From Isoetes taiwanensis (taxonomy: Eukaryota; Streptophyta; Lycopodiopsida; Isoetales; Isoetaceae): a stretch of DNA of 64,000 nt. The position numbers and the translations under genes are program-made. Below the pieces are notes generated by a model, which was not told the DNA's origin, made no database searches, and saw nothing but the letters and a program-made list of their open reading frames with translations. The DNA lies in contig JAJEKV010000126.1 in assembly GCA_021234155.1 (NCBI GenBank), positions 346,658-410,657 on the forward strand. Direction: 5' to 3'. Positions 2,994 to 27,899 of the stretch are shown here, piece after piece; positions within the stretch are counted from its first letter, which is position 1; each line of letters begins with the position of its first letter.

Positions 2994-5424
2994 CTGACCA
3001 CTTGATGGTTCAATATACATATTTAAGTACGTACATATGTATATACATGATGGATTGTACATAAGCAAAGGCTTTGCCTCTATGGAGGATTTCCAAGAGC
3101 TTTCCAAACACGTAAAGGCAAAAGAAGGAGCCGTGGCGGCATTTGGAAGACTGCATCTGAAGGATCGCATCAATGCTGGACTGCATCAATCTATTTTGTC
3201 AAGTGGAAATTCTCGCTGATTCAATTAAGATAATATATACTTTCATAAAGGCTTCATAGCTATATATATTTGAGAAGATGTGGCATAACTGGATAGCTTC
3301 CAAGCAGATGGACTGCAATCAGATTGTAGCATGCCTAATTATAGTTGCACAAGGATGAAAGACTAGTGCGAATCAATCTTAGGGTTCTCATGCCTTGTGA
3401 TATAACTTTGAAAGCATCTAAAGGAAGGCTTGGTGAATATGTGAAAGGGTAATTTGCCAATATTAGGTATGGATTGAACTAAATATTACTTGTTGAGAAT
3501 CTGAGTTAGTTATGCACTGGCAAACTCGAAAAGCACCAAGAGGATGAGGAAAGTCATGTGGATCGTGTTGAATTTGCTACTAAAGGGCTAATTTTGATGA
3601 ATCAAGGATTGTTTTTATATAATCAATGGTTGTTCCTATCCTTGGATACTGCTTGAAGAGCTCAAAGGGAAGCTCTAAGCTACCGAAAATTAGAAAATCA
3701 GGCTAGAAGATAGATCGAGATTACGAAAGGAGTAAATTCAAGCTAAGAAAGACTGATTTGTCTTGGGAGGACTCTAATATGAGGAATCAAATGCCATAAC
3801 TAAATGTTAAAGCTTCCTCAAGTAGGTCTACATTGCCTTTTTGTTGGTTCTATTATTTCTTCTTGCTGTTGTTTACATTGTTAACTAACAAGGAATAAAC
3901 CATTGGGATAACGTTGCTTTGCATGTGGTCAGAGACATGAGTTGATTATAGACTAACTCTAGCGAAAGAGACATTGTGTAAATAAAATGCTAATGAAAAG
4001 TAAAAGGATGTGTATAATTCTAATATATATGAGTCAAAGATATATTGGGAGTCTGGAGATGGAGACTAGATCAAAGTTTGTTTTGTCATGAACTTCAGGG
4101 AAAAATGGTCGTGGAGCGATGGGAATCATAAAGCTAGACATTGTTGTTTACGTATGCGTATTTTACCTCTGGGCACATATAGTACCTCATGTATGTAAAA
4201 TCGCAATTATACTATACCTTAAAGTTACTTTGCCAATTTTCCAATCGTTTTGTTTAATGCGCATTATAGCATTATTGATCCGAAAACTCATTATAATGCA
4301 TTACTTAATCCAATTAAAAATTCCAAATATCTTAAATATGCTAAATGGCCGAAATGACCCATAAAATTCGAAATTTTTAAATATGAAAAGGAACTAAATT
4401 ATTTACACTCAAAATCAAAAAAAAAAAAAGCCTTAAGTCTTAAAACACCCCAGGTATTTAAGACTTTTGTCTTACTATCCCAAAAGGACTTAAAGACCCA
4501 ATTAGCAATCCTAGAAAAAAGACAGGTGCAAACCTTTTTCCAGGCCAAGATTTGAGTCAACAAGAAAAATTTATAGTCTTTGAAACAGAAAAGTATTATT
4601 AAGACACTTAAATTATTTAGACACTGATTCTTTTCCCAAAATATGATGGAGTATATATAGTATTTCCAAGAATTAATATGTAATAAGACAAAAAACAACA
4701 TAATATATCCCAAGTAACAGCAGTTCCGAAAACAAATCAGTAGAAAAAATATGTTTATAGACTGCATTGTCTGGAACAACATATTATCTTAAACTTAAAC
4801 CAAAACGACATATTGTTTTTATGCATCCTTCATAAACTGCAAATACTGTTTAGAGATCACCATTTTCAGAATATAATTTGTGGAAAAAATAGCTCCCATG
4901 AACTAATAAAAGAAATCTGGAGGAGGAACTCCGGTTACCTGCAATAAAACCATAAGCAAGTAGCCTTGGAAGGGTAAATGCCTAAGCTACCACAGGTAAG
5001 CTATGGAGTTACTCAGCACATTGCCTTTCACCAAATTGTCCTTTACACATAAATAAATGTTAGATAGACGTTAGTATATGCTTATGAAATCAACAGAGTA
5101 TTTCAACCTTAGTCGTTTTAATCAAGTAGTGAACTCAGATCCATAACATGTCATTCTCAATCCCATTTAGGAAAAAACTAAGTCTAAGTTATCGATGGGT
5201 TCCCATATGTGTATAGCAGCATTCACCAAGTTAGCTTTACAATATTCCATCAGATCTTTATGCTGTTTATACAAAACATTCGCCCAACCAGCAACCACCA
5301 TGCTTTACAAAATTAAGGTTTACCAGTAAAGGATATGTTGAACTAAGCCTCAGATCTATGTAAAGTAGAAAACCAGTTTATAAACTTATGAGTTACATAT
5401 TAACTTTCAATAAAGAGCAGCAGT
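2994..5424. other. Intergenic, no gene recognised
   Basis: Mostly AT-rich sequence. A minus-strand open frame at 4399-4782 is low-complexity and matches no family I know. I see no repeat with other parts of the window and no RNA gene. Confidence 0.5.
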
Positions 5425-5989
5425 CTACTTTAAGCACAGAACTTGTAAACTCTTCATGAGGGTTCTTGTCATGTGTCCAATATCATACGGTAAGCTAGGG
5501 AAATTATTCTTCTTCAAAGTGTTGAATACAATCCGTACGATATCCTTTTTGTTGAAGCCATTTTCACAAAATGCCATAATTAAACATTGGATGTCTGTAG
5601 CAGCTGTAATAGGGGAGGAGTGCATATATATATGGTAGTATTTGGAATATGATGACCTTACTTGCTTGTCCTTAGGGCCTGCAACCAGATGCCTTAATGA
5701 ACTTGTTCACTTTAAAAGGTAGTTTCCTTCTTTTATCGTATCTGTAAAAGGTGAACATGCCTAAGTGTGGATTTGTGACCTGAATAGTGAGATTCATCAC
5801 ATGAATCATGTGCCCCCATGGCTTCTGTCCTGGAAATTGCTTATTGTACACCGTCTCATCTTTGTCGAGATGATTCATATTATATATAGTGCAATCCGCA
5901 TCTTTGGAAAAGAATTCTTGTACATCCCCAGCATTGATCAAAGTAAGGTCATCAAAATATCTGTAAGCAAACTAAAACCTTGGAATTCC

Positions 5990-6388
5990 ACTTGTTCTTT
6001 TCAAATGTGCCATCTTAATTATGAAGAGTTCAAACCATGCCAGATAGATGTTACACCATGCAGGGCTACATGAGAAGCCCATGGGTCTCCCTTTTTTTTG
6101 CCTCCAAAGTCATTCCCCATTTGTAAGTAACAATGGCATAGAAGCCATGTATTTATGTTCTTAAAATCCATTTTTGTCAGAATAAACTTATTTGTAACAG
6201 ATATAGATCAACACACTTATCCCATTTTGCTTTGATGCCAATACTTTTTATCTTGACAAAAAACTTCTGTAATGGAGCAATATGTAGTTTATATTCCCAA
6301 ACCAACTCAGCAACATCATCCATTATCTCAATGATTCCATCTTTTCCGAATAAAGGTATGTTTTTATAGCATTTCATAATGTCTGCTG
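5990..6388. repeat. Direct repeat inside RT1, copy 1
   Basis: About 400 bases nearly identical to 6846-7247, differing mainly by small indels and single substitutions. It encodes part of the RT1 palm upstream of the catalytic box, on the minus strand. Confidence 0.9.
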
Positions 6389-6845
6389 TAACACACCTAG
6401 GGGGTTGTGGGATAAGTAAATAATTTTTATTCTTAACCTCAGGTCAGGAATATTTAAAAGAATTGCAACGGTTGGGAAACATATTGAATACGGGTGTCTA
6501 TACTAAGGTACGGTAGGTATCTGAGAAAAATAGCGGTAATATCTGAACTGGAATAGCAGATCTATGATTAGAGGAGATAAACTAGATAAGAATTTGTAAG
6601 AGTAGAAAGATGGTCTCTATTATTGGAAAGAAGACGATATTGTTCTAATTTTAGAAAATGCCGATAGTATTAAAAAAAAGGGAAACTTTAAAACATGATA
6701 ACTCAGCGGGCGTTTATTAGACTGGAGCGAACTTAACTATTCTGGAAAGTCCTCCGAGTCTAGTTTCATAATTGGGGTGGCATCTCTCGTGACTCCTTAT
6801 GGTTAGAGAGATATCGCAGAAAAGGTGGACAGGGGTCAGAATTTA
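6389..6845. other. 457-bp stretch between the two RT1 direct repeats
   Basis: Sequence unlike RT1, with no recognised coding capacity and no evident terminal repeats of its own. Together with the flanking repeats it splits the reverse transcriptase. Confidence 0.6.
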
Positions 6846-7247
6846 ACTTGTTCTTTTCAAATGTGCCATCTTAATTATGAACTTGAGTTCAAACCACGCC
6901 AGATAGATGTTACACCATGCAAGGCTACATGAGAAGCCCACGGGTATCCCATTTTTTTGCCTCCAAAAGTCATTTCCCGTTTGTAAGTAACAATGGCATA
7001 GAAGCCATTGATTTATGTTCTTAAAACTTATTTTTGTCAGAATAAACTTATTTGTAGCAGATAGATCAGCACACTTATCCCATTTTGCTTTGATGCCAAT
7101 ACTTTTTTATCTTGACAAAGAACTTCTATAATGGAGCAATATGTAGTTTATATTCCCAAACCAACTCAGCAACAACATCCATTATCTCAATGATTCCATC
7201 TTCTCCGAATAAAGATATGTTTTCATAGCATTTCATAATGTCTGCTG
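6846..7247. repeat. Direct repeat inside RT1, copy 2
   Basis: Partner of 5990-6388. This copy is continuous with the upstream (N-terminal) part of RT1, while the other is continuous with the downstream part, so one copy is surplus. Confidence 0.9.
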
Positions 7248-8042
7248 AGAAAAGGTTATGTATCTTGTTGGGAAGGTTAAGTACAAGGTCATAAGTAGAA
7301 CTAATAGTCCAGTAATGATTTACTTTATTCCCTAACCAAATATTCGGGATGTTCTGTATTCCATTTGCATATGAGAGGCCATAGATCAGTTACACTACTT
7401 AGCATTGCAGTAATCAAATCTGCAATCTCAGTGAAGATGCTATTATGAGCATTGGTGATCCATCAATACTCACCCCTGTGTGCCTTAAAAATACCCATGA
7501 GGTAAGGTAATTTATCACTGAAACTCTTTAGAAAAGGGCACAGTCCATGTATACCTGTTATGCACTCAGATTTGGTCTCTTTAATTCCCAATGAAATTCT
7601 TTCAAAATTCAAACATTCAATCGTCGGGCCATCTCTCTGATATGCTTTTGGCATATGAAAGAGGCATTATTATTCGCCTTATCTAGACCTGAGATATACA
7701 AGTTTTGATTTAACCAGTCCAAGTTTCTCTTAACATCCCCTTGTACTTGTATAAATACCACAAAAGTTGTATTTGACATGCAAGGTATTCCCAACTCGGC
7801 CCGAAACTCCATCTCGTTAAGCCTGGGTGCCGCCATCGTTAGTTTTAGTGCATACTGAAAAACATCAGCGGAACAAACCCTAAAAAAAAAAAATGTTTTG
7901 AAATATTCTAAAAAAACAATTCCCAAAGGACTTTTGGTCATGTAAAAACACCTTAGTGAAACTTGGCAATCAGTGTCGAGTGAAAACCCAAGTATTATCT
8001 CTGTTAGTTAGAAATCTATTGTACCATCTTGATGTTCATAAG

Positions 8043-8084
8043 GAGAGAGAGAGAGAGAGAGAAAAAAAAAAAAAAAAAAAAAAA
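8043..8084. repeat. GA microsatellite followed by an A run
   Basis: About ten GA units run straight into about 22 A residues. The run sits just before the left edge of segment A. Confidence 0.95.
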
Positions 8085-10440
8085 CCGCTGAACTAGCATC
8101 ACTAGACCGGACATCCCGCCTTGGTCAATCCCTTAGCAGTATTATCATACCGTAACTAAACAGAGCATTTCTAGCATGGTACTTAATTACCCTTGTCTTT
8201 TACTTTATTTTCCTTTTTTTTTAAGAAAAGGACAACAACCAAATAAACATTAAACCATAGAGACAATTCATCTTTTATCATAGGTCAAATGCCATTTATA
8301 CTTGATCATATTATCATAAGGTAGCTTCTTATCATAAGATACCAGCCTGCTATGCCTACATATGTATAAGTAACATATGTATAAGTAATATGTCATCCTT
8401 ATGGCATTTAGTTCAAAAGGTTTTATTCAAACTACCTTACAGCCATTGATATTATTTTGAAGACCATTAAGTACCACAAACATCATGGGTCTTAGACTAA
8501 CTGAGTCTAGGTGTGACTTTGTTTTAAATCATTCACCTATCCGATGGTTTTAACCATTTGAAGATGTTACCATCATGTATTTAAGGAAAACCATCATTTT
8601 TAGAAGTCTGCCATCTCTTATCTTATTGATTATAACAGCTCTATTAACCCGTGCATTTTCACAGACCAATTGAATTTAATTATCAGTCCATGCATATGTA
8701 ACTGCAGGCTTAGTTATTCCACTATAACATGCTTATTTATGCAAATCAATGCTCAAGAAGGAATAATAACCATATATATCCAACAAAGTATCATATATTA
8801 CTCTGTTATATTGCTACTTTTATGCTCCAATGATCGTAAAACATAAGGCGATCAGAACATAGACGATTTTGGGCATATATTTTTTTGTCAAGTCTACTGC
8901 TGTATAAAAATAGAGGTCCATACAGCAGCATATTCATTTAGCTATTTTATGCTTATAGATCAACTGGAAAAAGCTCTAAGTATACTGTTACAATGTACAA
9001 AAAAGTTTTTAGAAAAGAAACACATCCTCTATTGGTTCCATGCTATCATAAGCTTCATCTCTGAGTCGTCCTTGCAACTTCCTCATCCGGTTACTCCATC
9101 ATCCATACATGCAATGTAAAGCTATTTAAGCAAAGGACACAATGGGAAGAAAGCCCCGTCCCTGCAGCCAATCAAGCAAACATTAGCGGTAAACCCGGTA
9201 AAGATGCAAGGGCCAAAAGGTACTATGGGGTTTTCAGTTTATAACTGATTACCCATTGCGCCATTTGCCCGTTAGTATTACAAAGCATATAAAGAAAAGC
9301 GGAGTATTATTTAGCCACTGCCCTTGTTTACAAAGAATACATCATTCTATATAATTTAAGAATCTGGATCAGTAATATCTGGATATGTTACTATTGTCAT
9401 GCATTATTACATGGGCTACATCATCCTGAAGTCTAGTCCATGCTAGTTAACCTTTTTCCGCAGAAATATAAGTCCTATAACTAGGATTTGGTCTCCTGTC
9501 ACTTCATATCAGTGATTTTAGAAGGAAACATAACTTAATGGTTATATTTCCATCCTATTTCTTATGACAGCCTATGCATTAGAACAACCTTATGCTTTTT
9601 TTTTTCCCTTTTTATTCTATATGATCATTAATGGCAGTCTAAGATAAGTCTACTGTAAAGCAAACATATAGATTTAAGAACCACTCTGACTACAAGGAAC
9701 CTGAGATTCGTCTGGTTCTTCAAAGTATTCTTGTGTATCTCTGACATTTTGAGCAGATTGGAAGTCCTCTTGGCGTTTTCCGCCATATGCTCTGTTGCCC
9801 TTACGATAACCAGTTATGTCATCCCTGTGGTTGAAGCTCCTCTTCTGGCCATAGCCACCTCTATACCCTCTTCCATCCATAGCCGGATCTTTGCTCCGAG
9901 TATGTAAGGCGCAACCTTCAAACTCCTGTCTAAGTGATTCCTTGTTCAGCCACTCTTCTTCAGACCCTGAGGTCTCACAACCATCAGAATAAAACCCCAT
10001 TATGTGGGTGTGGTCTCCGAGATCAAGACTTGGTATTTGGTCCAGCCGAATCCTTTTGCATATCCGCCAACCGCCGAACTATCCGACCGCGCTCTCATGC
10101 AATTTAGATTAACTCCCCCAAAGGCATTCAATTTTAAGCCGCTATGGATTTTTATCCCAACTATATTTAAAAGGAGCATTATTTTCCCATTCTTTTCATA
10201 AGGGTATTACCACACTTAGATATGGTTATGTGCTAGGCACTATATACTAGGGCCATCAATGTGATATCATACAAAATAAGTTAGTCATGCTTGATATACC
10301 CATCTCCTCATGTAGCATTGCACACTTTAACATTATACTCATTAAGAGTAGGAAGTTTAATTGAATTATATGACCTTGTATTTCCAATGCCCCTTTGCTA
10401 GTGAGCATTACAGATCATGATGCAAGATATTATAAAAAAT
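8085..10440. repeat. Segment A, uninterrupted copy of a duplicated 2.35-kb unit
   Basis: Matches four separated blocks of segment B (14766-15074, 21913-23083, 27462-27899, 30686-31105) in the same order and orientation. Similarity begins near GCATCACTAGACCG and ends at an A-rich run. Differences are dominated by small indels at CTG and CAG. The right part carries the ORF at 9674-10092. Because it lacks the three insertions found in B, it acts as the empty-site reference. Confidence 0.85.
9674..10092 (-). CDS. Small basic RG-rich ORF upstream of RT1 (ORF1-like)
   Basis: The frame opens after a stop near 10093 and the first ATG is at 10000, giving 108 residues; the frame upstream of the ATG is open for about 30 codons, so the start could be an exon edge. 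The product begins with an acidic Ser/Glu part (TSGSEEEW), then a basic Arg/Gly/Tyr part (GRGYRGGYGQKR, then GNRAYGGKR), and ends in an acidic tail. RG-rich basic proteins often bind RNA. It lies on the same strand as RT1 and about 1.7 kb upstream, and a second damaged copy lies in segment B. An ORF1-like partner of the reverse transcriptase is an inference; a 3' exon of a host RNA-binding gene is the alternative. Confidence 0.45.
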
Positions 10441-10639
10441 AAAAATCCCCCGCCCTCAATGTGGAATGTGACTAACATACCTTGATTATCTTGTCGCGGA
10501 GCATTGGGATGGCTAACCCCCCAATCGCTACAGGGGTTATGCCACATCCCATAATCACGTTAGCCTTGAAACTGTTTTTTACAGACATAATACAAAGGAA
10601 AGGAAAATATCATAAAATCCGTGCATTTATAGTCACACC

Positions 10640-12430
10640 TTCTTTAGTATGGTTTTAGAAATTGGAGCAGTACTGCACAATCATATTGCAACCCAGGGAA
10701 GTTGTTAATTTGGATGTACTTATATACTCCTTTTCTTAGACCTCTTTGATCAAAGCCATTGTTCTGAAAATTCTGAATCAGTAGCTTAATGTCTTTGGCA
10801 GCAGCTCTTGGACATGTATGAACATACATGTATGGTAGTATTTGAGACACAATGACATTCCTTGCCTGGTAATATGGCCTGCAGCTACTGGCATGGACAT
10901 ATTTGAGGACTTCGAATGGTAATACATCTCTTTTATCAAACTTAGTGGTCTGGTATATGCCATTAGCTCTGCTAAGGATCTCTATTGTCATATTTAGAAA
11001 GTTAGCTTTATACGCGTAAGCATGCATTGAATCTTCTTTGAAAGCAATACTGGTTTCCTCTTTAATCCCAAGATACTCCATGTCGTAGATCATTATCTTG
11101 TCTTGTTTACTAGAAGAAGTATAGTTCAGAAATTCTCTAATGATATGACAGCTAATGGACAACAGATCATCCATATACCTGAATGTTAACTTGAACTATT
11201 CAGCCTCATTGTATCTGCCATGTTCAGCCAAGGTCTTTAGAAATTTAGCTTCGAACCAAGCAAGGTATAGATTGCACCAACAAGGGCTACATGCAAACCC
11301 CATTGGTATACCACATGTTTGGATCCATGGCTATTCTGGCCTTGGTGAAAACAATTGGCTAAAAGCCATATATATTAGCCCTGATGCATGTAGCCTCTGT
11401 CATTAAGGACCAACACTTATCCTTTTGGGATCCACTTTGAACCATTTGGCTACATATTTCGTCCCTCATCTTTTTGGATCCAAAAGCTTTATTGTTATGG
11501 GTGAATACTATTCATATAGTCCCAAGTGGCCTTAATAACTTGTGTCATAACATCACAGATAATGTACCCCAAATAATGGGATACTCTCATAAGATGGTTA
11601 TATCGCCACATATACCGTTATTTTAAGGTGGAGGTTTATAACCACATCAAAATATGGACACCATCCAATTGGGATTAATCTTTCAGAAATATATTGCGTA
11701 CTTACATAATTTCCCTAGCTATGTCCGCCATATTTCAATAATCATATTAAGAGTTGCGTAATAATTTGTGAGAATTGTAAATAAAGTTAAGCCGCGGTGC
11801 ATCGGTAATCCAATCCAGTATTTTCTTATGAGCTTTGTAAATGCTAAGTAGGTATGAAAGTTTCTCGTGAACTGCATCAATGTATGGCATAATAGCTTGC
11901 ATTTCACTGTGAACTTTCCATGATCAAGTATTTGATCAATGTTTACTTCTAAAGTCTCTTTTGCTATTTAGCTGTCAAGTGCCAATTCTCAGATATGGCC
12001 TTTGGACAAATAAATGCTGGATTGTTTGTGGTTTGTTTACCCCTACATATATAAATACTTTTACAGAGCTGTATCCAATACTTTGGTGACATTTTCATCA
12101 TTTAGCGAAACTTTCTAATAGTGTCTTTTTGGCTGTTGTTCCATCCATGTGATGTGCTCTTTTCAAGAATTCAAATCTGCCATCAAGCTTCCTATATGTA
12201 TCGAGTATATGTGGATAAGTGAATTTATGTAATTCAAATATCTTATCTATGCCGGATTTCAATTCTACCTTGAATTTTCCCATTCCAAGCTTTTATCGTA
12301 TACATTTGAACTCCCCAGCAGCTAAAGCATACTGAGATGCTTGTTCCTGCATAACATTGATATCAGGTTCTAATGTGACCAATATCCTGGGTCAACAAAT
12401 TTGTGTAATCGAGGTATTGAACATGGACAA
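10640..12430 (-). pseudogene. Penelope-like reverse transcriptase, copy RT2 (broken)
   Basis: The longest frame, 10644-11174, starts inside the catalytic box. Just upstream in the same frame is FKLTFRYMDDLLSI (box at about 11163-11183), preceded by an in-frame TAG at 11196-11198. Upstream of that comes GIPMGFACSPCWCNLYLAWF (about 11240-11310), the family's GxPMG...SP...NLYL box. After RYMDD come ANFLNMTIEI, FDKRDVLPF, SCRP, a VIVSQILPY stretch and NNGFDQRGL, in Penelope-like order. Farther upstream (11.7-12.4 kb) are KLSYLLSIYKAH and WITDA stretches matching RT1, but in shifted frames. RT1 and RT2 share boxes yet differ widely, so they are old paralogs or different subfamilies. Confidence 0.65.
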
Positions 12431-14765
12431 ATCTCTCCTCACTTTCCCCGGCAAATATGTAGAATGGCTTATAGCACAAATCTCTCATATTTTCGTGATA
12501 TTTCAAGAGAACATGGTGTGTTGCTCATAATGTCCATGCCAATATTACCCAACACATCCTCCTATAGCTTTATAGACTATTTGCAAGCAGATTTATCTAG
12601 TATTTTACAGAATGTGCAAAATGAACAACTTTTGGTTTATATCATTCTCTAGGTGACTCTTCCTAGGCATCTTTCATCAGCCTTTGGTTTCTCAGATAGC
12701 AATACGTAAAAAAATCCCACTCATGTTAGTTCTAAAATGCATTTTTCAGAGATAGAATTACTTCCATGTTAGACCAAAGATCTATGTCTAAATTTGGATG
12801 ATCCAGACATCGGAAGTGTGCAGCCGAGTGGCATATATGATCTCATATCATATGAGTTAGTTACTTTACATCAGTCAAATAGGTAAGGTAATTTATTTCT
12901 GGGCTTATCATGTATACATTCACATTATTACCATGTACTAGAATGATCCTACCAAATAATTTTTTGTACTTAATTCGTGACATCATACCTATGCATCATA
13001 CATCGCTTATACCGTACATCATCATATTCTGTGATCTATAATTTCGTTGCCTTTGCACAGAATGCCCCACGCTTCTCGGAGTTTCCAAGCCTTCCAATCG
13101 CGGAAATTATCGATTTTTCAATTTGGAAAGGGTAGGTCAGACCAGAAGTCTAGTGGGAGTACTAATCACGCCTGAATTGCTTGCTTTGTTGGACCTCGCT
13201 AACCCTTGATCGTTTGTTGCTGCCAAGTATAACAAGAGCCATTGAACCACACAAATAGTCAATAGACTTAATGGTCTTCTCGCATATATCCTACCATCCG
13301 CCCTTAGGGTAACAAGTCTTCAAGTCAAGATTGGTTAGCCGCGCCAGCCATCCTCACGTCATGCCAATCAACATGTTTTAACTCTGTATCCAATGTATGC
13401 CAAAATGCCCGCTTAGAGTTGTCTTGAGGCAATTCTCGAAAGCTAACAAATTATTTGTCCAGCGAAGGGACATATTAGATATATTCATTCAAATTATTGA
13501 GTTATTATACCGATAGCTTGATCAAGTTTACATCATGTTATCATCACATTTGTTGTCCCTTGTCGCTGTTTTATCCTCTAGATATACATTTGAGATAATG
13601 CACACATTGTCCCTCCGCATTCGCTTTAAATAGAAGTCATCTCTTTTCATATCTTGGTATGCCATGTGTCCTTTCTCTCAAGCGTACCACTTTTAGCACA
13701 TTTTTTATCAAAAAGTTGGGAAGTAACTTCCAACTTGATTCCGTTTTCTTCATTTTAATCATTTTGAAGGCAGCCCATCTTGCCTCTATAAGCCTCCCTC
13801 CATAGTGATATTCTCAATATTAGCCAGACATCTTCATCAATTGGAGCAAGTGCACCGTAAAGTTTTTTGTCCGCCATATGGCTGACACATAAAAGCCTGA
13901 TTTTCTACCAATCGCCTATTAATGGGAATTTTAAGCAGCTTTCTCAAGGTAAATTTGAACCTTACACTTGAATAAATAGCTATCAACTGAGTGTTTTTGG
14001 TTGCAGCGGAAAGCCTTATCCTCTTCCTCGTATGAGGCTTACTCCTAATATATATCAATATCATGCATTTGTATCTTTATCTTCAATTTGGTTTTCCACT
14101 TATCATTTCTCCTCCCTTAGCATGCGAAGCTTTTTAATTTCATTAACATCTTCTAGTGCGTTGACTCCAATGATGAAACTTTAGTGTCTATCTTCATGAG
14201 TCCAATGTATATTTTTGAGCTAAATCAGCTATACATCCCATATATGAAGGAGCAACTCTTTATCTCGGAAGCCCTCGCTGTCTTATATATGAAGGGCAAC
14301 CTCCTCCCTCTTTATCCGAAAGCCCTGATAAGGGGTAATAAGAGTATTCCATTCGGGCTAAACCAAGGTGAGACACAACCTAGAACCGATTTGGACTCTC
14401 ATTGCTTCCCTTTCCAAAGACTATTTCATGTAATTCTGTACGATGCAAAGATATATAATGGTTTGTACAAGACCGCTTGGCTATCTAACTTATTTTTGTC
14501 ATACCCAGTAATGGTCTTAGCTCAAGTTCCAAATAGGCTAATAATTTCATACTCCTCCTCAAATGCTTCCTCGCAATTTTCAGCCGATGCAACCAATGTA
14601 GAGTCAGTAAGATATTACTCATAGTATATTATTACAAAGGAACTTTTCGATATTTTTTTTTTCCCCAGATGCTATTCTAGATAATCTTACAACTCGCCAC
14701 AAGGCGTATAAGTAGAAGTATCAACAATGTACCAAGTGAGATGAAGTTCCTAAAGAAAACCCGCA
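12431..14765. other. Region upstream of RT2, no gene recognised
   Basis: May hold the decayed N-terminal half of RT2: a minus-strand frame at 13837-14064 is open and basic, but I cannot tie it to a domain. The plus-strand frame at 14184-14624 (146 codons) has no recognisable features. No repeats were seen. Confidence 0.35.
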
Positions 14766-15074
14766 AATTAACCAGCATCACTAGACCGTATATCCTACCT
14801 TTGGTCAATCCCTACAGATTATCATTCCGTAGAATTAAACGTATATTTCTAGTACTCCAGACTTCACACTGTCTTTTATTTTATTTTTAAAAAGGACAAC
14901 AAACTAAATAAACATTAAAACCATGTAGACAATTCATCTTTTATCATAGGTCAAATGCCATTTATACTTGATCATATTATCATAAGGTAGTTTCTATCAT
15001 AAGATACCACCGCTATGCCTACATATGTATAAGTCATATGTCATCCTTATGGCATTTACTTCAAAAGGTTTTAT
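14766..15074. repeat. Segment B, block 1
   Basis: Aligns with 8085-8425 of segment A, for example around ATAAACATTAAA and ATCATAAGGTAG. It ends at the junction with the LINE-bearing insertion, where A continues for about 20 more bases before B resumes at 21913. Confidence 0.8.
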
Positions 15075-18000
15075 CCACCCCCATCCATACCATACATCTT
15101 CATGGCCGCCTCAGAGGCCCCTGCCCGCATCTCCCATTTGAGGGAGATATCCTCACCCCCAGCCCCCACATCACACTTCAAACCCCACTGAGAACCAGTA
15201 GGAGGGGTCACACAAGGAAACGGCCCTACGATAACAAAGACAAGGGAGAAACCTCTTCCATGAGGAGGAAGCCCTGACAAAGGCCCAATCGCGAGATTGA
15301 CTCCTGAGATGGATTAGCTATCGCCAAGCCCTTATCAAAAAGCAGACGAGACTAAGGAAATGTACCGGAGGAACAGACGAGAGCAACTTTTAACCCTGGG
15401 ATTGCGTGGATCGACAAGCAGAGATAATAAATTCTCAAGATCCCATCGCGTACTCAAAAAGACAGCTGGCGCTGGAAAGGCAACGGTTACGTAGATGGAG
15501 ACCCGCATGCTGCTTAGGGAAGATCTGCTTCGCTTTTGGCCCACTTCCACTTTGAGAGGTAACAGATACAAGGTGGCTCCTCACGACTTGCGAGCTCGCT
15601 GCGGATTCCCTCCTCACCACCATGGAGACTACATATGGCAGGCGCGCATAAGTGGTGTTGAGTAGATACAAGGCAACTATTTCCTTCAAGTCGTGGCCGA
15701 GGGGCATGCCAACAAGGATAGGAAATGTCCGAGCCATCATCGGCCTAGGCAGAGCTAAGAACCCTGCAGAGTAGGGTCAGACACAAGATCGAGATCCGTG
15801 AGCTCAAAGCAACCATTGCCTGTACAGGCAAATACCATGCCGTAGGTCCATGAACACCAAGTAAGATCAAGACAAATGAGTTGGCTAAGCCAAACAGAGA
15901 TTCCAACAGAGCTAGGCTCTCACTGTGCGCCAGAGGTCAAGAACACGCGGGACGCCTGCCGCGACGCGTTCTACGTGCCCCCACGTCGCCAAACAAGGTG
16001 ACCGACACCACCTCCTCCATCTCAAGACACACCACACCGCCCTCACGCGGAGCAGCCCACACCCAGCCCAGCGCCACCGGGCCGGAACAACACGTTTCAA
16101 CTCGCGAGATGCTAGAGCAGAGCCAGCCGACGCCATAATGTGGTGGTGCGTGGACTCCTGAGAGGAGGTAGGAGAAGATCCCACCGTTTATCCGTGATGA
16201 GATCCTATTTCGGTTTTCAGCATTCCCAACTACTTCAAGACACTACTAGAGCAAGTCAGCCTTTGGGCCTTTAACGTTATCGTGACGCCAAGGTTTTACC
16301 TTCACGGTGGCGTATACGCGAGTATCGCGAGGCCATCCTCAAGGCCGTAGTAGGCAAATTGCTGGGATCAAGCTCAGATGTCGCATCAGATTCACCCCGA
16401 GCGTAACAGGAAAACCTACTTCTAAGCAAAGAATGTCAGTCGGTGGACGCCCGGCCAGAGGGGGGCTTGGTGCCTTGTCCGTAAGTAAGCTTCATTTTCA
16501 AAATTCTCGCATACCGCCGAGGTTGCCGCAGGCAATGCGCCGCTGCCACACCGCTTGCCGCCGCTGCTATCGTGCCAGCATTCCCATCGCACCTCCTCAA
16601 GCCCCGGGCTGGCCCGGATCAGGCCGCCAAGGTTACTGCGACACCGCCCCCGGCAACCGGCGCGGTGATCATCGCAGCATCCACATCAATGCCACAACAA
16701 ATAGGAACTGCGGCTCCAGATGGTGTCTTGAACCGGGCCGGCTTCCCCTCGCGTAGAAGGCGAGTCTCAACGCTTATTGCATCGATATGGATCTCATTTC
16801 CTTTCCCTCATGGAAACATGGGAGCATGCAGGTACGTGACCACCTGACCTCCCAGCGTCCGTGATTTCTCTGTTCAATGAGTGCACAGTGTTTAGGCATG
16901 CATGGTTGCTCACAATACCGCGGGTAACCTTGAGGCACTACCGCTGCACAAAAATGCATGTGCACAATCGCTTACTATGGGTGCGAAAAAGATGACAAAG
17001 GGCTATTTACACTTTTCTCATAGCAAAGATATTACTTTCCACATGCCGAGAGCAACCTTTATAACACTCATTCTGGATGTGATAGATTTGGAGCCCTATA
17101 TATCGATCTATATGATGACATACAGAAGTACAAACAGCCAAGGTGGATTATGTTGCTTGGCGACTTTTAATGTACCTATCGTGAACCTAAGGTGTTCCAA
17201 AATTTGAGCCCCCGGGCAGAGGACGCCTTGCGCTTGAGGTGGTTTCGTCAAGGATATCGACGACATCCATATTTCAAGGCTTATGGCGTGCAAAGCTTGT
17301 TGTTGCCGGGTAGTATCTTTGACCGGTTATTTGTAATGGCTGCTACAATGGTCACTCTTCCACCGCCAGATCAGAGTATGTGAGAACCAAGGGGGCGGCT
17401 CCAAAGGTGGTGGATTATCTCACTGGTCGAGGAACCCGGATCAGACCGTTATCATTTTTCCATCGACGCATAATTCTGACGAGGAAGTGACCGGACCACC
17501 GCCCCCTCGTTCATGCATCTCCATTGGGAGGCTCCCCTGCATCTACTTCACCTCAACACACCGTGTGCCCCAAATTGCACTGACTACGCACTGCAGGACC
17601 TATGCCCGCTGTTTGAGCATGATCCGCGGGATCACAGAATTCCCCACACTTCAAGAGCACCGCCACCGACCTATCCGGCTTCTCGACGGCCGCATAAAGA
17701 TGCTTTGGGAGAGGTACGCTTCACCTACGTAACCTCGTGCACTACCACCTTCCCCCGCACGCATGGTTTGATGATGAATGTCGGAGCTCAAACGCATAAT
17801 TCGCAAGTCATCGATCCCATCTCCTTCACAAAGCGCCGGCCAAATAATATTGCCGCTTTCTCAAGAACAAGAAGGCTTATACCTCGCTGGTAACATCAGC
17901 AATGTGATGTTTGGTCTCCCCGGACCTACACCCCAGACATCTCCCCGAAGGGTCTTGAGATAGCCTCGCGACGTTTCCACATGAACATCACTCCTGAGCA

Positions 18001-27461: not shown

Positions 27462-27899
27462 TTATTATATATGATATAGATATCATTAATGGCAGATAAG
27501 ATAAGTCTATCAGAAAGCAACATATAGATGCAGAACATCACTACAAGGAACCCGGTGATTTGTCTCACCTTCACAGCATTCTTATGTATCTCCTCGACAT
27601 TTTGAGCAGACAAAGTCCTCTTGGTGTTTCCTCGCCATATGCTTTGTTGCCCTTTTACGAGCAACTTCCGGCTATCCCTATGGTTGAAGCTCCTCTTCTC
27701 GCCGTGAGCTACCTTCTATACCCTCTTCCATCCATAGCTCTGGATCTTTGCTCCGAAAGTATGTAAGGTACAACCTTCAAACTCCTCGCCTAAGTGATTC
27801 CTTTGTTCAACCACTCTTCTTCGCACCTCGAGGTCTCACAACCATCGAATCAAACCCCATTATGTGGGTGTGGTCTCCTAGATCAAGACTTGATATTTA
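27462..27899. repeat. Segment B, block 3
   Basis: Aligns to about 9620-10035 of segment A, from CATTAATGGCAG to GATCAAGACTTG. It carries the second, damaged copy of the RG-rich ORF on the minus strand, and ends at TATTT (27895-27899), where the third insertion starts. Confidence 0.9.
27500..27890 (-). pseudogene. Damaged second copy of the RG-rich ORF
   Basis: Homologous to 9674-10000, but the frame is broken by several indels. Most of the differences turn a CTG or CAG of the other copy into CTCG, CG or a similar string, so the damage may be a sequencing artefact. The start ATGGGGTTT region is preserved at about 27860. Confidence 0.7.

Follow-up and report, generated by a model that had tools for sequence, protein, structure and literature searches.

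A high-copy retroelement family with a putative Penelope-like reverse transcriptase and long T-bounded repeats in the lycophyte Isoetes taiwanensis

Two decayed retroelement copies lie head to tail in the window

A 64,000-nucleotide stretch of the Isoetes taiwanensis genome (hereafter the window) carries two reverse transcriptase (RT) regions, RT1 and RT2, which a sequence-only reading had described as two RTs side by side and had likened to Penelope-like elements (PLEs). Comparing them with the whole genome (1,658,258,908 bases in 1,110 contigs), we conclude from sequence that RT1 and RT2 are broken copies of two lineages of one high-copy retroelement family with several open reading frames (ORFs). 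The genome also holds a plant rbcL (locus L012), which resembles those of lycophytes. The RT boxes named earlier were all found where they had been placed, on the minus strand: FAYRYFDDL, YDKR and SGCRP at 5672-5971 for RT1 and, for RT2, CGIPMGFACSPCWCNLYLAWFEAKF at 11199-11330 and FRYMDDLL, FDKR and SSCRP at 10644-11195. These boxes are not there by chance, since 149 other scored places in the genome resemble the RT2 stretch, with 52-90% protein identity.

Both regions are thus present as described, but neither is intact, each being a decayed copy of the same family. RT2 (10647-12693) contains several stops and frame breaks and is open only across 10647-11195. RT1 belongs to a single lineage and is split into two pieces (7740-6839 and 6388-5457) that overlap as the result of an internal duplication; the copy has lost its ORF1 and the N-terminal part of its RT. 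Together the two elements span approximately 4417-15077, which is broader than the region originally flagged (5425-12430). They lie head to tail: the RT2 element ends in a T23 run (8084-8062), after which come a CT repeat and, at 8042, the start of the RT1 element, which explains why two diverged RTs are found side by side in the window. The features of the two elements are listed below, where B denotes the terminal repeat, A the interior and L numbers designate loci elsewhere in the genome.

14752-15077, minus strand: what is left of the RT2 element's left terminal repeat, from the end of segment B; 79% identical across 348 bases to the end of the L005 repeat
13023-14628, minus strand: ORF1 remnant of the RT2 element, with a broken frame; tblastn with five open ORF1 proteins, best E 3e-45
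10647-12693, minus strand: RT2 reverse transcriptase remnant; 73% protein identity to L005 over 337 residues
10434-10447, minus strand: decayed A/B boundary, purine-rich then a T run, at the start of the right terminal repeat of the RT2 element; a signature known elsewhere in the genome
8085-10445, minus strand: right terminal repeat (segment B) of the RT2 element; 81-84% identity to the L005 and L013 repeats
9674-10078, minus strand: ORF3 of the RT2 element, within the repeat, open, acidic then RG-rich; up to 76% identity to the ORF3 of other copies
8062-8084, minus strand: T23 run at the right end of the RT2 element, with a CT repeat between it and the RT1 element's left end; the ends of other copies are likewise bounded by T runs
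7747-8042, minus strand: left repeat start (segment B) of the RT1 element; 78% identity to L043 6618-6915
6839-7740, minus strand: first RT1 fragment; 91% DNA identity to L043 5007-5910
5457-6388, minus strand: second RT1 fragment, overlapping the first in the RT; 92% DNA identity to L043 5503-6441
4418-5456, minus strand: two-part remnant of the RT1 element's right terminal repeat; 78% identical to segment B of L043
4417-4429, minus strand: T13 run (A13 on the plus strand), right end of the RT1 element

Farther along the window, an ORF3-like remnant at 27530-27846 on the minus strand gave a weak tblastn match (best E 7e-06), and another decayed repeat copy is probably present there.

The family is high-copy and its proteins show a purifying pattern

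A copy count, proposed with the sequence-only reading, gave 150 scored places for the RT2 stretch (10647-11195) among 2639 first-look candidates and 150 for the RT1 stretch among 1980, the window copy being included each time. Many of the non-window RT2 relatives lie within open frames of approximately 690-705 amino acids. This copy number, together with two insertions for which empty sites were found (see below), rules out the single-copy cellular rvt gene that had been kept as an alternative.

We read eight loci of approximately 9 kb (L005-L010, L043 and L044). The RT frame was open in all eight (686-705 amino acids from stop to stop), while ORF1 (approximately 525 amino acids) was uninterrupted in six, all but L010 and L044; ORF3 (113-119 amino acids from stop to stop) was open in L006, L010 and L043 and fragmentary in others, so that two of the eight loci, L006 and L043, have all three frames open. 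ORF1 accompanies the RT in both lineages, which departs from the single-ORF organization of PLEs. Between the lineages, the RTs are approximately 40% identical and complete ORF1s 32-35%. The proportions of synonymous (pS) and nonsynonymous (pN) differences were 0.77-0.88 and 0.12-0.42 for the RT, and 0.71-0.84 and 0.12-0.23 for ORF1, the broken ORF1 of L010 being excluded from the alignments; since synonymous sites are near saturation, no pN/pS ratio was used. At the level of these alignments, the purifying pattern makes selection evident on both ORF1 and the RT.

The reverse transcriptase appears related to Penelope-like enzymes

In the RTs of five relatives, Pfam RVT_1 was the sole informative match, at 20.2-28.4 bits and under its cut-off of 29.6, in contrast with the 150 best RVT_1 places of the genome, which score 144.5-150.2 bits. 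Profile searches of the PDB with the RT and with ORF1 returned weak unrelated matches only, and no solved RT. The claim that these enzymes are unlike the RTs of plant long terminal repeat (LTR) elements and long interspersed nuclear elements (LINEs) therefore stands, and the profile searches gave no firm grouping with a known plant LTR, LINE or group II intron lineage. PHROGs yielded a single weak RT match (E 0.0012) for L005 and none for the L043 RT, no relatives of the RT were found in GTDB genomes, and IMG/VR contained no relatives of the RT or of ORF1. A canonical PLE motif, searched as a DNA pattern, was found at six places in IMG/VR, none of which proved to be a PLE when read, and nowhere in the Isoetes genome itself.

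Using an animal RT sequence as bait, we found four loci (L083-L086) in records that bear the names Bathymodiolus gill symbiont, Thiodubiliella or Thioglobus, where these animal-type RT fragments are probably contaminating mussel DNA. We take the RT type of L083 and L085 to be Naiad-type Penelope-like. A profile of Isoetes RTs built without these four loci (searches at Z 100,000) matched a YDKRDDF-type RT fragment at L083 1111-1725 with an E value of 5.8e-12, and L085 with an E value of 0.0037; the L086 piece and a second L083 piece fell below threshold, and no frame of the decayed L084 was listed. Pfam fails to recognize the four scanned animal pieces as RTs. The motif order of both window RTs is Penelope-like, as had been proposed, and given the match to the YDKRDDF-type fragment we consider an affinity of the Isoetes RTs to Penelope-like RTs probable.

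No GIY-YIG nuclease had been seen in the window, and the same is true of the family: Pfam scans of six ORF1, five RT and two ORF3 proteins detected no GIY-YIG, RNase H, integrase or protease. The ORF1 and ORF3 proteins gave weak sub-threshold matches only, which were taken as chance, an RNase III-like match of the L043 ORF3 (E 0.034, 14.8 bits, cut-off 35) being one of them. ORF1 is possibly an RNA-binding or particle protein. Rfam returned one sub-threshold snoRNA match and no hammerhead ribozyme. GIY-YIG was found at 121 places in the genome, three of which were opened, with none beside an RT. Multi-copy GIY-YIG frames (L020, L021 and L022, on C1030, C1034 and C1078) are distinct from the RT family; by eye, those of L020 and L022 adjoin a PIF1/Helitron-like helicase frame.

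Full copies are bounded by long direct repeats and conserved T tracts

In the best-preserved copies, the interior A (ORF1 and RT) is flanked by direct repeats B of 2.2-2.6 kb, which carry ORF3. The two repeats are approximately 2.5 kb long and 92-94% identical in L005, 2.6 kb and 98.5-99% in L008, 2.25 kb and 98% in L010, and at least 2.36 kb and 99.6% in L043. The structure of a full copy is T(n)-[B]-T7/8-[A]-T7/8-[B]-T(n). The A/B boundary consists of a purine stretch, ACGGNAGGNGGNAGGN, followed by T7-8, and this signature with T7 has 765 exact matches in the genome, compared to 0 for a reversed control. At the B/A boundary, the RT2 lineage shows GGG and then T8; the tract is T8 in 6/6 RT2-lineage copies and T7 in 2/2 copies of the RT1 lineage.

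Many units are arranged in tandem. Among the first 100 A/B junctions listed, 33 lie within same-strand clusters, and neighboring junctions less than 10 kb apart are on the same strand in 21 of 22 pairs. Spacings of approximately 6-6.8 kb fit full units, and those of 2.7-3.9 kb include non-autonomous units, as read in two head-to-tail arrays of 3.2 kb units, L070 (C46:124000-132800) and L071 (C907:7984500-7993500), which keep both T-tract junctions and the hairpin described below, yet have no protein match. A 142-kb region (C1018:4459968-4601470) contains 15 same-strand hairpin junctions, nine of whose 14 steps measure 6.65-6.76 kb, four 2-3.2 kb and one 71 kb. The family thus displays the LTR-like direct repeats and partial tandems that characterize PLEs.

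A covarying hairpin is conserved at the start of the interior segment

A hairpin starts 13 nt past the T7-8 tract at the start of A, in both lineages and in the non-autonomous units; copies of the RT2 lineage differ in their predicted minimum-energy pairing. A search pattern fixing the loop with its two closing pairs, a single outer base, one purine and the flanking sequence had 187 matches, compared to 8 in a control. In 43 distinct sequences drawn from the first 100 of these matches listed, 97.1% of cells are paired and five of eight pairs change on both sides. The other three are invariant; the pattern fixes two of them outright and one side of the third, and it restricts the 3' side of a fourth pair, 13-29, to A or G. 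A covariation score of 0.500 was obtained, which was reached by 0/500 shuffles, whose significance is overstated because the sequences are related, which does not affect a second control in which sliding the partner by one column halved the score. Cells with U-G or G-U outnumber those with C-A or A-C by 31 to 3, which argues that the hairpin is kept in the sense strand.

The empty sites of two insertions hold T tracts

Element ends were sought in 34 copies (L005, L008, L009 and L010; L043 and nine others; two further sets of ten), requiring a T run of at least T6, and both ends were obtained for nine of them, the others being tandem, beyond the sequence read or ambiguous. The repeat boundaries of L005, L008, L010 and L043 had been aligned before T runs were considered. 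In the nine copies, left runs measure T11-T31 and right runs T8-T35, with T on the coding strand. L005 aside, no target-site duplication was found in 11 distinct flank pairs (sets of eight and nine, L027 and L039 being in the eight-pair set only) by a test that sees long matches only. A 35-bp direct repeat around L005 was rejected as a target-site duplication, being already present in the L005 empty site.

Empty sites were sought with joined flanks: the L025 junction was spanned by nine places, three of which were read, and the L005 junction by one, which was read. The L025 empty sites hold T7, T8 and T6 at the junction and the L005 empty site holds T26. L008, L062 and L043 are flanked by repeats on the right. 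Six of seven other flank places read have a T run directly before the flank, L080 being the one without; two of the six are preceded, by eye, by family-like ends. Also by eye, L027, L087 and L093 each join the end of a further element on their left side, at a T run.

Inverted similarity between flanks was clear in one of nine cases (L033) and borderline in L056, and was taken as a local palindrome. The flanks of L033 and L034 form an imperfect inverted repeat of approximately 55 bp, placing that insertion in or near a palindrome. Telomere-like repeats were not seen by eye at the nine copies with both ends read, and many copies lie deep inside contigs of 10-53 Mb, so that the telomeric location and repeats associated with endonuclease-deficient PLEs were not found here.

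A model for entry into T tracts by base pairing

On the observed gene order, repeats, copy number, conserved tracts, hairpin and T tracts at two empty sites, we build a model of which we infer the RNA ends, the priming, the pairing of the complementary DNA (cDNA) and the roles of ORF1 and ORF3. We lean toward the view that the family is an endonuclease-less, Penelope-like element with three ORFs and inserts into poly(T)/poly(A) tracts through base pairing. A sense RNA would start in B and carry the hairpin 13 nt past its first U7-8 tract, where it may act as a cis signal for the RT or for packaging, and the RNA would terminate in the U run at the end of B. Without an endonuclease, the RT would prime on the 3'-OH of poly(dA) tracts paired with this terminal U run, and the cDNA ending in A's would then anneal to the T strand on the other side. 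The element would thereby land in a T tract that was already there, its coding strand carrying the T's, and nothing but T's would be duplicated; the T runs at element ends would become fresh targets, giving head-to-tail neighbors such as RT2-RT1. ORF1 would form a ribonucleoprotein or particle, and ORF3 would bind RNA.

Several points weigh against this model. The left T runs exceed the internal tracts, which plain copying cannot explain; slippage, or the poly(A) tail of an antisense RNA, could lengthen them. Two full B repeats would call for template switching or an RNA from a tandem array. T runs at most ends are there partly by construction, since these ends were sought through them, only two independent insertions have an empty site, and the test would have missed a duplication made up of T's or only a few bases long. 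The ORF3s of the two lineages are, moreover, only presumptive counterparts. Finally, members of the Naiad/Chlamys clade carry an N-terminal GIY-YIG, none was found on the animal RT pieces scanned, and the PLE label of the matched RT is tentative.

Alternative explanations

The most serious alternative is an endonuclease-deficient PLE like Athena or Coprina, which would prime at telomeres or double-strand breaks and have no special targeting, its T runs being incidental. Such elements share with the Isoetes family a PLE-like RT without an endonuclease in our Pfam scans, tandem copies fit this explanation, and endonuclease-deficient PLEs have been reported for Selaginella in a review (PMC9033089). 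The published view is that they prime at exposed 3' ends, at telomeres or breaks (PMC3846280). The Isoetes copies differ in not having been seen at telomeres, many lying deep within large contigs and inspection by eye revealing no telomere-like repeats at the nine copies with both ends read, in their T-tract ends, in having several ORFs, in their precise repeats and in their high copy number; moreover, both empty sites hold T tracts at the insertion point. We therefore regard this explanation as unlikely.

Less probable still is that the long left T run derives from the poly(A) tail of an antisense RNA that was inserted through target-primed reverse transcription, the endonuclease coming in trans from, for instance, a LINE. 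Left runs of 11-31 T's, longer than the encoded T7-8, would be expected if so, and an antisense template has been proposed for Penelope, on other grounds, in PMC3846280. Such an origin is hard to reconcile with the lack of long target-site duplications, with a right end that also bears T8-T35, with T tracts that pre-exist in the empty sites read and with the excess of sense-strand wobble pairs in the hairpin (31 versus 3).

That the family would be a true LTR retrotransposon, with B as its LTR, the purine stretch as a polypurine tract and an integrase and RNase H diverged or acting in trans, seems very improbable to us. The resemblance to plant LTR retrotransposons, including large retrotransposon derivatives (LARD) and terminal-repeat retrotransposons in miniature (TRIM), is real: two precise direct terminal repeats that are 92-99.6% alike, a conserved purine tract directly before the right one and short non-autonomous relatives, and a short T-only duplication would escape detection. 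It stops at the absence of protease, RNase H or integrase matches in the scanned ORFs, at ends that are T runs instead of TG..CA, at an ORF3 located inside the repeat, and at a different RT, whose profile picks up a YDKRDDF-type RT but no solved RT. An endogenous pararetrovirus-like agent, whose circular genome would be integrated as more-than-unit-length and tandem copies, could account for arrays such as the 15 same-strand junctions on C1018, with ORF1 as a possible coat protein, but it is hardly credible given that the ends read are the same T-bounded B boundaries and are not permuted, that Pfam gives sub-threshold RVT_1 only, that non-autonomous derivatives share the same junctions and that no relative was found in IMG/VR.

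Relation to known Penelope-like elements

The Naiad/Chlamys clade of PLEs was reportedly described by Craig and colleagues in 2021. The Isoetes RT core resembles that of this clade in its GIPMG..C(A/S)P, RY.DD and YDKR-type thumb motifs and in the L083 match, whose clade label is tentative; it differs in that no GIY-YIG was found in the family, which possesses extra ORFs, T-bounded repeats of 2.2-2.6 kb and poly-T insertion sites. With canonical, endonuclease-containing Penelope, as presented in PMC3846280, the family shares direct repeats of the pseudo-LTR (pLTR) type, partial tandems and terminal repeats that serve as cis signals for passengers, whereas no GIY-YIG was found in it, no 8-10 bp duplication was seen, and its repeats are about ten times the 218-bp pLTR.

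The sequence-only reading had called PLEs rare in plants, a statement to be tempered, since a review already lists endonuclease-deficient PLEs for Selaginella, Pinus and Picea (PMC9033089). In the literature covered by title and start of abstract, which leaves key PLE papers outside, we found nothing on the Isoetes family, and the word Penelope is missing from the main text of the genome papers of I. taiwanensis (PMC8566536) and I. sinensis. It is thus plausible that the family is an undescribed lineage. It is also possible, and we suggest it only tentatively, that it represents a separate order of plant retroelements, combining a Penelope-like RT with an unrelated ORF1 particle or nucleoprotein, long T-bounded repeats, a covarying hairpin as cis signal and an integration by tract pairing that replaces an endonuclease or integrase.

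Significance

How endonuclease-less retroelements reach 3' ends away from telomeres is an open question, to which the Isoetes family offers a testable answer through its encoded T tracts. The family also supplies a covariation-backed, cis-acting RNA hairpin, whose role we propose from its position and conservation, for a group whose replication is poorly understood. Finally, it gives a lycophyte example of a putatively Penelope-like RT within a high-copy element that has several ORFs and an LTR-like organization, and such elements may hide among the unclassified repeats of published annotations.

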